From an uncultured Verrucomicrobia subdivision 3 bacterium (GTDB lineage: Bacteria > Verrucomicrobiota > Verrucomicrobiia > Limisphaerales > UBA11358): a stretch of 62,187 nt of DNA. The notes under the pieces were generated by a model. That model saw only the letters and a program-made list of their open reading frames with translations, was not told where the DNA came from and did not search any database. Of this stretch, positions 1 through 53,757 are shown piece after piece (within the stretch, counting starts at the first letter, position 1; the number at the start of each line of letters is the position of its first letter). Made by a program: the position numbers and the translations under genes. The stretch spans positions 1 to 62,187 of the forward strand of contig CAISYZ010000159.1 of assembly GCA_903889895.1 (NCBI GenBank), written 5' to 3'.

Positions 1-189
1 GTCTCGGGTTCAGGTCAAGACGTCTCGGGTTCAGGTCAAGACGTCTCGGGTTCAGGTCAAGACGTCTCGGGTTCAGGTCAAGACGTCTCGGGTTCAGGTC
101 AAGACGTCTTGGGTTCAGGCCAAGGCATCTCGGGCTGACGCCAAGAAGTCTTTGGCTGCCGCGTCAACGTCGTTGGCTTAAGCCGACAA
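1..189. repeat. 21-bp tandem array I (truncated by window start)
   Basis: Five identical 21-bp units occupy 1-105. They begin GTCTCGGGTTCAGG and end TCAAGAC. Units at 106-126, 127-147 and 148-168 are increasingly degenerate, and a last very weak unit (169-189) runs over the rsmE stop codon at 178-180. Each unit has short inverted ends, GTCT and AGAC. The array probably continues to the left of the window. It shares its exact period, but not its sequence, with the arrays at 9.1, 39.2 and 53.3 kb. Confidence 0.93.
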
Positions 190-37392: not shown

Positions 37393-37431
37393 TCGGCGCA
37401 TAATTTGAAACGAAGTGAGTTGAAAGCCGAC

Positions 37432-38460
37432 ATGAACAGGTTTTTTTTATTTCTTAGTTTGATGTCGTTGGCCTGGTCAGGATATGCGCAAAGTCAACCT
37501 CCCGACTTGGATTTGTTTGTCAACTTTATAGCTATCTCCAATTCACCGCCGCCTCCACAAGGATTGTCGGGTCAAGCCCTGTATGATCGAATCCTTCCCG
37601 GTATGTCGACCTACACCAATCTATTGGAGGTTCATGTTGGGTTCCCGACAACGCCAAAAGATGGTTGGATTTTAGAGATGGAAGCGGACGGTTCTTTTAC
37701 TCCGGTGACCGAGCTGTCGGATCCATACAATTTTGGGTATTTTTATAAATGGGTGACGCTGACGACGAATCAGATTCATAGCATGATTGCTGGGAGCTTG
37801 TATGTGGAAGTGGATTTTGGTGAGAGTAACTATTTAGGCAATCTGACACCGCAATATGCCTTCGCTAAAGGGCCGACCGCGAAGGTCATCATTCCCACTC
37901 CGCTCGGACCGAATACGGCAAATGGTTATACGGCAATCTCACCTAATAACCACACGGCAAAGTTAGTCTTTGATGGTTCCCATTGCACAGACCCATATTA
38001 TTTGCCCATGCAATATTCATGGGTTGGTTATGCCGGTTATTATTCATTGGATCCTTCGGTAATTATATTTACGGCCACAAATGTTATGGCGACAAATGTA
38101 TTCAGCCTTGGATATTATAATATATCCCTTCAGGCACGAGATGTTGTGGCGGCTGGCGATCCGTTCTACATTAATTTGCAGGTTATTACCGCAGGTAAGG
38201 CAGTTGATTTGTTTATTCCGCTTTTGCAGGCTGAATCGTTGTCTGATAATACCAAGCAGGTCATGACGAAAGTTTTGTCAAATGCCGCCAGTCTTTTTAA
38301 TCATGGGCTGATGGAACCGGGCTGCGCCGAGCTTGAATTTTACGAGCAGATGGTGAAGGCGGCGCAATTAAATAGTCGGGAAACAACCTATCTCTTGCGA
38401 CCTATGCAGGACGTTATTGATGCAGTAACTCGACCTTATTTCACCACAGTTCAGCGGTAA
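37432..38460 (+). CDS. Exported AT-rich protein, possible CHRD-like N-terminal domain
   Basis: This 342-residue protein has a signal peptide (MNRFFLFLSLMSLAWSGYA). The first domain (about 25-150) has GWILEMEADGSFTPVTEL and LTTNQIHSMIAGSLYVEVDF, which resembles the end of CHRD domains, weakly. The second domain contains NNHTAKLVFDGSHCTDPYYL and LQYSW-type strands like a PKD/Ig fold. The C-terminal helical part (SDNTKQVMTKVLSNAASLFN) is of the type seen in dockerin-less repeat-protein tails. Base composition is clearly more AT-rich than in the flanking genes, which suggests acquisition or weak selection. The function is unknown. Confidence 0.72.
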   Translation: MNRFFLFLSLMSLAWSGYAQSQPPDLDLFVNFIAISNSPPPPQGLSGQALYDRILPGMSTYTNLLEVHVGFPTTPKDGWILEMEADGSFTPVTELSDPYNFGYFYKWVTLTTNQIHSMIAGSLYVEVDFGESNYLGNLTPQYAFAKGPTAKVIIPTPLGPNTANGYTAISPNNHTAKLVFDGSHCTDPYYLPMQYSWVGYAGYYSLDPSVIIFTATNVMATNVFSLGYYNISLQARDVVAAGDPFYINLQVITAGKAVDLFIPLLQAESLSDNTKQVMTKVLSNAASLFNHGLMEPGCAELEFYEQMVKAAQLNSRETTYLLRPMQDVIDAVTRPYFTTVQR

Positions 38461-38471
38461 TAAGCCGGAAG

Positions 38472-39095
38472 CTATTTCACCCACGCGTTGACGGGCTGGC
38501 TCCAGGCGCTTTGACCGTGCGCGTTCACGGCGCACACGCGGAACCAATACTTTTTCCCGCTCGCCAGACCGGTCAGGGTGCAGCTTTGTTTGGTGACTGA
38601 CTTCACCTGTTTCCAGCCGGTGCGGGCGGCGGCATCGGTGGTGGCTTCCACCATGAACACACACCGGCGCACGGAGCGCTGCCACCGTAACACCGCGCGG
38701 CCTTCGAAGTCGGTCGGGAGCACCCGCAAGTTCGCGGGCGCGGCGGGCAACCCCACGGGCTGTTTATCGCGCACCAAGTCCAATCCGGCGGCCAGCATGG
38801 CGGCGGGTTCGCCTTGGGCGAGGAGGGCCAGCAAGCCGGCGCTGGAACCGGCGCTGTTCCGCGCCCGCCGCAGGGTTTCGTTGCGGTGGGACAACGCCGC
38901 CTTGAGGGCGTGTTTCAACCGCTCGACATCTTCATGGGCTGCCTCGGCGTCCGCCAGTCGTCCGGCGAGGTCGAACGGCGTGAAATGATGGCGATGTTCC
39001 TTGGGCACCTTCGCCTCGCCGCTGGCCACGCGCCGGCAGATGGCGAGTTGTTCGGTGACGGTGCGGTTGCCGAAGTTGAGTTTGTGTCGTTTCAT
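38472..39095 (-). CDS. Small helical + FN3-domain protein B (array-associated)
   Basis: This is a 207-residue paralogue of the protein at 8392-9021. Shared features are the start MKR.K..FG.R, QLAIC, a charged helical region (about 20-115; here LADAEAAHEDVERLKHALKA and an Ala/Arg-rich stretch), EPAAMLAAGL, VGLPAAP and an FN3 domain with LRWQRSVRRCVFMVE and KYWFRVCAVNAHGQSAWSQ. It has no signal peptide. The start at 39095 is set by homology with the paralogue; there is no good ribosome-binding site. A 21-bp-period array begins 66 bp upstream. Identity is highest around the linker and RSVRRC, pointing to a conserved binding surface. Confidence 0.85.
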   Translation of the reverse strand: MKRHKLNFGNRTVTEQLAICRRVASGEAKVPKEHRHHFTPFDLAGRLADAEAAHEDVERLKHALKAALSHRNETLRRARNSAGSSAGLLALLAQGEPAAMLAAGLDLVRDKQPVGLPAAPANLRVLPTDFEGRAVLRWQRSVRRCVFMVEATTDAAARTGWKQVKSVTKQSCTLTGLASGKKYWFRVCAVNAHGQSAWSQPVNAWVK

Positions 39096-39160
39096 AGGTC
39101 GTGGCGGTGGTTGGTGGAAAACTGGCGGTTTTTCAAGGAAATCTGAGGAAAACCTAGCAT

Positions 39161-39601
39161 AGTGATGGCTATAATCAAATTTTATTGCCAACTACACAAA
39201 ATCCCGTTGCTTCCCGGCGACGAGTTGAAGCTACTGGACGAAGTTTAGTCGTCTCAACCCGAGGTGGAGTAGTCTCAAAACCTTTAGTTGAAGCTACGCC
39301 ACGAAGATTTGAAGCTACAGGAAGGCGTTTTGAAGCTTCAGAACGCTTTGTTGTAGCTTGAATACTTTATCTTGAAGGTCGGGAACTTTGTATTGATGGC
39401 AATATATTCTATTTATTGCCATTAAAACCTTGTCCGCAAGTCATCCGACGACGTTCGCAAGCGATTCCCCGCTGTCCGCAAGCGGGTTTATTTCGCCGGC
39501 AAGCTTGCGGACAAAGTTTGCAGACAAGATTACTTTATCCGCAGGCCAGTCCATTTCATCCGCAAGCTGGCCAACCGTCTTCGCCAGTCATGCCACCGCC
39601 G
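39161..39601. repeat. 21-bp-period array III (21 degenerate units, two core types)
   Basis: Twenty-one consecutive 21-bp units follow without an indel. Units from 39224 to about 39391 mostly carry variants of TTGAAGCTAC (39224, 39287, 39308, 39329, 39350, 39371). Units from 39434 to 39601 carry variants of CCGCAAGC (39434, 39455, 39476, 39497, 39539, 39560) at the same phase. A palindromic unit pair, TGATGGC ... TTATTGCCA, occurs at 39161-39202 and again at 39392-39433, exactly 231 bp (11 units) apart. The switch of core follows the second pair. The array lies 5' of FN3 protein B. Confidence 0.88.
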
Positions 39602-39704
39602 CCGACAACTTGAACGTGGTGGGCCATGCGGCTTGCTGGCGGGGTTCTAGCTATGCCGGCGCATTTTTATCGAATTCAGTCCCGAGGAATATTAATCTCC
39701 CGTC

Positions 39705-40700
39705 ATGTCCTATTCACCCGCTGCCACGCGCTACGATGACAAGGAGTTTTACCGCCGGTGCGGCCGTTCGGGCTTGAAGCTCCCGCTGCTGTCGCTTGGT
39801 CTCTGGCACAACTTTGGTGCGCAGGATGATTACGCCAACGCGCGCGCCATCGCGCTGCGGGCGTTCGACCTCGGCATCACCTGTTTCGATCTCGCGAACA
39901 ATTATGGTCCACCCGACGGCTCGGCGGAGATCACCTTCGGCAAAATCCTCCGCGACGATTTGCGGCCGTGGCGCGATGAACTCATCATCACGACCAAGGC
40001 CGGTTATTATATGTGGCCGGGGCCTTACGGCGAATGGGGTTCGCGCAAGAACCTGCTGGCTTCGCTCGACCAATCGCTCAAGCGCCTGGGCTTGGAGTAT
40101 GTGGATATCTTTTATTCGCATCGCTTCGACCCCGAAACGCCGCTCGAAGAAACGCTCGGGGCCGTCGCGCACGCGGTGAAATCCGGCAAGGCGTTATACG
40201 CGGGCGTCTCAAATTATCCCGCCGCCGAGACGGCGCGCGCGGCCAAGATTCTGCGCGAGCTGGGCGTGCCGTGCGTCATCCATCAGGCGCGCTATTCCAT
40301 GCTCGACCGCTGGGTGGAGCCGGAGTTGCTTGGCACGCTCGAAAAAGAGGGCATCGGTTGCACGGCGTTTTCGCCGCTGGGCAAGGGGCTGTTGACCGAC
40401 CGCTATTTCAAGGGCATTCCGTCGGACTCGCGCATTGCCAAAGACCAGCGGTTTCTCCGGCCCGAACACGTCACCGACGCCGTGCTCGCGAAGACGCGCC
40501 AGCTCAACGACCTCGCGCAGGCGCGCGGACAGACCCTCGCGCAAATGGCGCTGGCCTGGGTGTTGCGGCACAAGGTGGTGGCGAGCGCGCTCATCGGCGC
40601 GAGCAAAGTGTCGCAGGTGGAAGACAGTTACGGCGCGGTGAAGAATCTGAATTTTGGCGCGGACGAACTCGCGCGCATCGAGACGATTCTCGCGGGGTGA
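39705..40700 (+). CDS. Aldo/keto reductase, YghZ-like
   Basis: This 331-residue reductase resembles E. coli YghZ (L-glyceraldehyde-3-phosphate reductase). It has the start FYRRCGRSGLKLPLLSLGLW, the tetrad region GITCFDLANNYGPPDGSAE (Asp and Tyr), ELIITTKAGYYMWPGPYGEW (Lys) and the family-specific KRLGLEYVDIFYSHRFDPET (His). The NADPH-binding end is ALIGASKVSQVEDS. It should reduce aldehydes with NADPH in the cytoplasm. All catalytic residues are present. The ATG at 39705 is in the expected place. No operon partners are visible; it is convergent with the protease-like gene. Confidence 0.93.
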   Translation: MSYSPAATRYDDKEFYRRCGRSGLKLPLLSLGLWHNFGAQDDYANARAIALRAFDLGITCFDLANNYGPPDGSAEITFGKILRDDLRPWRDELIITTKAGYYMWPGPYGEWGSRKNLLASLDQSLKRLGLEYVDIFYSHRFDPETPLEETLGAVAHAVKSGKALYAGVSNYPAAETARAAKILRELGVPCVIHQARYSMLDRWVEPELLGTLEKEGIGCTAFSPLGKGLLTDRYFKGIPSDSRIAKDQRFLRPEHVTDAVLAKTRQLNDLAQARGQTLAQMALAWVLRHKVVASALIGASKVSQVEDSYGAVKNLNFGADELARIETILAG

Positions 40701-53337: not shown

Positions 53338-53757
53338 AAGCCGTCATCACCACGCCGTGGTGCGTCACTTTATTCCCGTGGTGACGAAGAATCTTGCCGT
53401 GGTGACGATGGCCCACGCTGTTATCCATCGGGAGCAAGCCTTCCTCCATCGGATTATCGCCTATATCCATCGGGAGCAAGCCAATATCCATCGGAATCTT
53501 GCCGATATCCATCGGGAGGAAGGTAATATCCGTCGGGATATCGCTGACATCCATCGGGAGGAAGGAGATATCCATCGGGATATTGGCGATAACCATCGGG
53601 AGGACGACGATATCCATCGGGAGATAGGGAATATCCATCGGGAGAACGACGAGATTCTTCGGGAGGACGGTAAAAACCATCGGGAGATAACCTTCCGCCA
53701 TCGGGATATCGGCAAGATTCTTCGGGAGATTGGCGAAAACCCGACGGTGGATGGCGA
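53338..53757. repeat. 21-bp-period array IV (20 units, two core types)
   Basis: Twenty 21-bp units follow without an indel. The first four (53338-53421) carry GGTGACGA-type cores, with a palindromic pair TCATCACCACG/CGTGGTGCGTCA over units 1 and 2. From 53422 on, sixteen units have ATCCATCGGGAG or close variants (for example 53422, 53464, 53548, 53611, 53632), followed by nine or ten variable bases, decaying to AACCCGACGGTGG at the end. Because 21 is a multiple of three, several frames stay open through the array. No FN3-type gene adjoins it within the window. Confidence 0.92.

Follow-up and report, generated by a model that had tools for sequence, protein, structure and literature searches.

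A two-block array of 21-bp repeats next to a small fibronectin type III gene in an uncultured Verrucomicrobia bacterium

In iteron plasmids, which replicate by the theta mode (e.g., P1, F, R6K, and pSC101) and show Rep autoregulation, direct repeats are paired with an inverted-repeat operator. The met boxes bound by MetJ are tandem short palindromic operators with an 8-bp spacing. The repeat described here, array III, occupies positions 39161 to 39601 of the window, the whole analyzed stretch of 62,187 nucleotides. This stretch corresponds to contig C159 in a fragmented genome assembly of 4.1 Mb, which is probably metagenome-assembled and verrucomicrobial.

Array III consists of helical-phase direct repeats adjoining a gene, and it resembles iteron arrays in its spacing of about two helical turns, its position 5' of a small gene, and possibly its inverted repeats near the promoter, which may be related in sequence to the direct repeats. 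In contrast to iterons, the arrays described here are chromosomal, occur dozens of times per genome with a core that differs in most of them, and accompany a fibronectin type III (fn3) gene lacking a Rep-type domain, with no replicon features seen here. Membership in the iteron/Rep family was considered and rejected, as neither a winged-helix Rep initiator nor any Rep or helix-turn-helix domain was found.

Partition centromeres of the R1 parC/ParR type likewise place phased direct repeats next to a gene that encodes a small protein, but no ParA or ParM partner gene was seen in the loci read here, and repeat length and copies per genome differ. Met boxes share the short tandem palindromic sites, and the core of one array (C104) contains AGACGTCT, the met-box consensus of MetJ; however, the spacing is 21 bp here instead of 8 bp, and no MetJ-like protein was identified here. 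Whole tandem units are gained and lost as in intergenic minisatellites (VNTRs), whereas the arrays here keep exactly the same period at loci that are unrelated, have palindromic cores, and are linked to one gene family. REP/BIME elements are also intergenic palindromic repeats of many copies, but the arrays described here share period and symmetry between loci, not sequence. We found no description of such fn3-linked 21-bp arrays in the open-access literature, and the arrays hint at an undescribed DNA-protein system. The features of the window are collected in Table 1.

Table 1. Features of the window related to array III and its surroundings
Feature	Position	Strand	Description
Array I	1..177		GTCTCGGGTTCAGGTCAAGAC; near-perfect 21-bp array, 3' of rsmE, cut by contig end
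purB-reductase insertion	37393..39704		Lineage specific; holds fn3 gene and array; empty site in relatives
fn3 gene (P0001)	38472..39095	-	Array-linked family gene; 207 aa, helical N-terminal domain and C-terminal fibronectin type III domain
Gene-proximal palindrome	39166..39190	-	Inverted core pair TGGCtATAAtcaaattTTATtGCCA, one mismatch; right arm at -79 from ATG
Block 1	39203..39391		Nine units of 21 bp with the core TTGAAGCT(A/T)C, which is of the palindromic GAAGCTTC type
Distal palindrome	39396..39422		Block 1/block 2 boundary; ATGGCAATAtattctattTATTGCCAT; arms ATGGCAATA-N9-TATTGCCAT
Block 2	39434..39601		Eight 21-bp units; CCGCAAGC-like core; lag-21 identity about 0.50-0.51
Aldo/keto reductase (AKR) gene	39705..40700	+	Flanking neighbor, not array-linked; Pfam PF00248, E=3.9e-69
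Array II	53422..53757		TATCCATCGGGA core; between 3' ends of convergent genes

Two blocks sharing a register

Array III is a 21-bp-phased repeat whose coordinates had been given correctly in the sequence-only reading, and it nearly fills the divergent intergenic region between the fn3 gene and the AKR gene. Sliding self-comparison at lag 21 yields an identity of 0.47 across the whole array and 0.55 in block 1, compared with 0.18-0.35 at nearly all other tested lags; in the whole window, values above 0.5 within the lag range of 10 to 63 are reached only at multiples of 21. About six of the nine units of block 1 carry TTGAAGCT-like cores, with the units at 39245 and 39266 deviating, and the block shows dyad symmetry (p=0.005).

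The mean identity between units is 0.49 inside each block and 0.35 across blocks 1 and 2, a split that is sharper than every random division of the 17 units (5000 trials; p<2e-4). The profiles of the two blocks match at 0.35 at shift 0 and at no more than 0.28 at every other shift, and AAGC is common to both cores in the same columns. Because identity separates the blocks and the register is shared, the core change is a real switch, and the claim that it happens without loss of phase is confirmed.

The gene-proximal palindrome stands between block 1 and the fn3 gene. The two palindromic unit pairs of array III (42 bp each) lie exactly 231 bp, or 11 units, apart, a distance that had been read correctly, but the accompanying statement that the same pair occurs twice does not hold, as 25 of the 42 positions are identical; the pairs are related but diverged. 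The palindrome arm TGGCAATAA is matched by the direct-repeat cores GGCAATAAAAC and GACAATAAAAC in G059 and G016 and is shared weakly with the unit cores in the window. An exact-pattern search with the cores and the palindrome arm matched no other array in the same genome, and the exact core pattern matched no array in 39 relatives. Plasmids and viral contigs yielded no match.

Orthologous loci and the site of insertion

The gene next to array III has orthologs that are 82% (G016), 76% (G059), and 57% (G062) identical, and both palindromes are retained at the orthologous gene in all three of these species. Counted in the direction of the gene, the distal palindrome begins at -327 in the window and at -306, -327, and -328 in G016, G059, and G062, respectively. 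The right arm of the proximal palindrome is found at -79 in the window and in two orthologs (G016 and G059); in G062, where the position of the left arm was assigned by eye, it is found at -122. The spacing from palindrome to palindrome is 231 bp in the window, 210 bp in G016, 231 bp in G059, and 189 bp in G062, always in whole units, and block 1 has 9, 8, 9, and 7 units, respectively. Block 2 leaves weak traces of lag-21 identity in G016 (0.38) and G059 (0.37) and none in G062.

Palindromes and phase are conserved in these orthologs and the unit number is variable; the spacings of 210, 231, and 189 bp indicate that the blocks change by whole units. The sequence-only reading had proposed aligning arrays from related strains to see whether blocks are gained, lost, or exchanged. 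The comparison with orthologs in other species revealed gain and loss of whole units of block 1, but exchange of blocks as modules was never seen in the compared orthologs (one genome per species), and the 231-bp spacing is not fixed. Arrays I and II and the arrays on other contigs have neither paired palindromes nor a two-block layout. The proposed structure, in which palindromic pairs delimit two blocks that share a phase, stands for array III and fails as a general rule for the other arrays of the genome, being specific to the orthologs of the array III gene.

The G016 ortholog still sits between purB and the reductase gene. In three sister species (G003, G013, and G015), the site is empty: purB and the AKR gene are directly adjacent, with a few bases between them, and therefore the module of fn3 gene and array is a lineage-specific insertion. 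No target duplication and no transposase were recognized at this insertion. In other species (L057, L069, and L070), the gap between purB and the AKR gene holds unrelated genes, as if it were prone to insertion.

A small fn3 gene family with its own upstream arrays

What the sequence-only reading had overlooked is that the array belongs to the adjacent fn3 gene and that this linkage extends across phyla. The encoded protein P0001 matches the Pfam fn3 family (E=1.4e-8), and its AF2 model comprises helices at residues 13-102 and fn3 strands at residues 121-205. Profile searches recognized the fn3 domain alone, with no match to a Rep, helix-turn-helix, or other known DNA-binding domain, and Foldseek with the model returned fn3 domains only, leaving the N-terminal helices without a match. 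The window gene has no match in Rfam, PADLOC, and NCBIfam, and its PHROG matches are limited to fn3 domains in tail proteins; the viral and plasmid collections that were searched contained no member of the family. A ribbon-helix-helix N-terminus (a KVKLNL-type strand and helix) was considered from the sequence pattern and set aside, as the profiles gave it no support.

The small-fn3 family was matched in 33 of the 49 genus genomes at E<=0.001, where some matches are fn3 domains in long proteins. At 28 of the 34 family loci examined in the genus, an array with a 20-22-bp period and an identity of at least 0.5 lies within 0.9 kb upstream. The same genes have a downstream array in 5 of 34 cases (p=3e-8), and none of 28 relatives without the fn3 module has an array upstream of the AKR gene (Fisher p=4e-12). 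A scan of named genomes gave 11 relatives, all of them with an upstream array (about six re-sample genus genomes already counted, and about five are new), including metagenome-assembled genomes labeled Schlesneria (Planctomycetes), Blastocatellia, and Pyrinomonadaceae (Acidobacteria). The gene family with its own upstream array, with a period of about 21 bp, is thus found in bacteria of three phyla.

Some seemingly orphan arrays lie 5' of P0012, P0013, an fn3-like gene on contig C25, and P0011, which are divergent members or other genes, P0011 having a sub-threshold match to the NCBIfam "PQLLE family". Arrays are also located 5' of genes for an ArsR-type regulator and a GH15 protein, and an array 5' of a GH15 gene (L147, 221-470) has the met-box consensus AGACGTCT in its core. 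Array II is a true exception to the upstream rule, and at array I the assembly probably broke within the repeat. In many family genes (L035, L090, L097, L105, and others), an in-frame Y/D-rich leader (YDTPGLTYDSGALYDD-like) precedes the conserved MAKVK start. A second small open reading frame starting with M(A/P)(F/Y)D..(L/K)P..(A/S)(P/Q)IV(S/A)AELRNQF is found 3' of the fn3 gene in L124, L125, L127, L128, L129, and L130, the one in L127 having no PHROG or NCBIfam match.

The linkage bears on a selfish or neutral minisatellite, in which replication or recombination favors 21-bp steps and the fn3 family merely resides in such DNA or spreads together with it as a cassette. This explanation, to which we give a minor but serious probability, would account for cores that are unrelated among loci, for units gained and lost whole, for array II between convergent genes, and for a module inserted into an otherwise tight intergenic site that is empty in sister species. 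However, the 5' bias and gene-family specificity, the dyad symmetry, the uneven conservation inside units, and the conserved palindrome positions are unexpected of neutral repeats.

Period, symmetry, and possible functions of the arrays

Sliding self-comparison of about 0.65 Mb of the genome detected 16 regions at lag 21, one at lag 22, and none at lags 19, 20, and 23. This sample is enriched for fn3 contigs, and the resulting figure of about 100 arrays per genome is a rough extrapolation. The core sequence is array specific and differs in most arrays, whereas the spacing of two helical turns is nearly always kept. Other periods occur in relatives, namely 22/44 in L108 (G298), 20 in L036 (G023), and 22 bp in L043 (G056), indicating a spacing near two helical turns and not a multiple of the codon length.

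The last point concerns the very improbable case of a heptad-repeat protein encoded by the array, with 21 bp equaling seven codons. Long open frames do cross several arrays, e.g., (IHREEGD)n in array II, but the periods of 20 and 22 do not fit, stops are not depleted relative to arrays with permuted columns (mean p=0.65), and the conservation carries no codon-position signal; we rejected heptad coding on the latter two results. The plus-strand open frame of IHREEGD-like heptads in array II spans 181 residues, and open frames are present on its minus strand too.

Dyad symmetry is significant at p<0.05 against column-permuted units in 21 of 43 arrays (about 19 of 41 after removal of duplicates), far more than chance would give, and not significant in about half. 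The dyads are mostly compact, even-length palindromes: in 19 of 22 cases the axis falls between two bases, and the complementary positions cluster at 3-5 bases from it, i.e., palindromes of about 10 bp, these figures being descriptive only since the axis was chosen on the same data. In roughly half of the arrays, substitutions are concentrated in one portion of the unit, a pattern that uniform neutral decay would not produce.

The dyad cores could also point to a structured leader RNA, in which transcription of the array would give a 5' leader with one small hairpin per unit. Some of these cores may contain a loop of four bases (TTTCCCT-GACG-AGGGAAA in L130), and columns across the dyad do covary slightly above chance (z=5). 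We consider this improbable, as degenerate edge units could cause the covariation, wobble is not in excess on the gene strand (127 G-T versus 89 A-C mismatches at the dyad, near the shuffled ratio), many dyads have no loop (AAGACGTCTT), Rfam gives no match at E<=1, and a period that stays at 21 nt is to be expected of DNA and not of RNA. The conserved and the variable half of each unit might recall a CRISPR-like or other defence memory array, to which we assign next to no probability: the repeats are degenerate, with units about 50% alike and "spacers" of about 10 bp, whereas CRISPR arrays combine near-identical repeats with unique spacers and cas genes, and PADLOC matched none of eight proteins tested, flanking genes included.

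Our preferred explanation, which is tentative and falls somewhat short of an even chance, is that the phased units are dimer sites which, together with inverted pairs of sites close to the promoter, regulate the fn3 gene in the manner of operators or iterons. Array III would be the upstream cis-region of this gene, and each 21-bp unit would be one site for a dimeric DNA-binding protein, the spacing of two helical turns aligning the bound proteins along the same side of the helix. The palindromes, as inverted pairs of such sites, would lie beside the promoter and at the block boundary, and the expression of the fn3 gene would depend on how far the array is occupied. The array would grow, shrink, and be homogenized by whole units, so that the core changes rapidly but the period, and in many cases the symmetry, is maintained.

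We infer the binding, the binder, and the regulation from the upstream linkage, the single period, the dyads, the uneven conservation, the palindrome fixed at -79 in three orthologs, the palindrome arm matched by repeat cores in G059 and G016, and the arrays next to the ArsR-type regulator and GH15 genes, all of which favor the operator explanation. It is weakened by the absence of a known DNA-binding domain in the encoded protein and by a search for a sigma-70-like promoter that found none. About 100 unrelated cores per genome would furthermore need many specificities or a binder reading mainly symmetry. The position of array II, the half of the arrays without a significant dyad, and the loci L124 and L130 also speak against it. 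In the latter two, the genes are 85% identical and the left flank is kept, but the cores are of the TTCGA..TCGAA and TTTCCCT..AGGGAAA types, indicating that cores turn over much faster than genes.

A broader and doubtful possibility is that members of a widespread gene family have their own 21-bp dyad arrays, with array and cognate binder drifting jointly; this would be a new addressing system with dozens of mutually insulated gene-array pairs per genome. Sequence is the usual criterion for tandem repeats that lie 5' of bacterial genes, but here it varies between arrays, and the period of two helical turns, often with dyad symmetry, is kept at different loci and in different species and phyla next to one gene family. 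Should the arrays serve as binding platforms, they would make observable how DNA-protein recognition was rewritten many times inside one genus, and they would offer a starting point for studying a protein family that recurs in Verrucomicrobia and is known to Pfam by its fn3 domain only.

The left flank is about 82% identical in L124 (1922-2055), L130 (1901-2034), and L126 (2040-2185), and the arrays following it differ in core. This flank holds the nested palindromes GGTGGTTTGCG, GGCCAAGAC..GTTTTGGCC, and CTTTTAAGCG, and in L130, pieces of it recur several times upstream.
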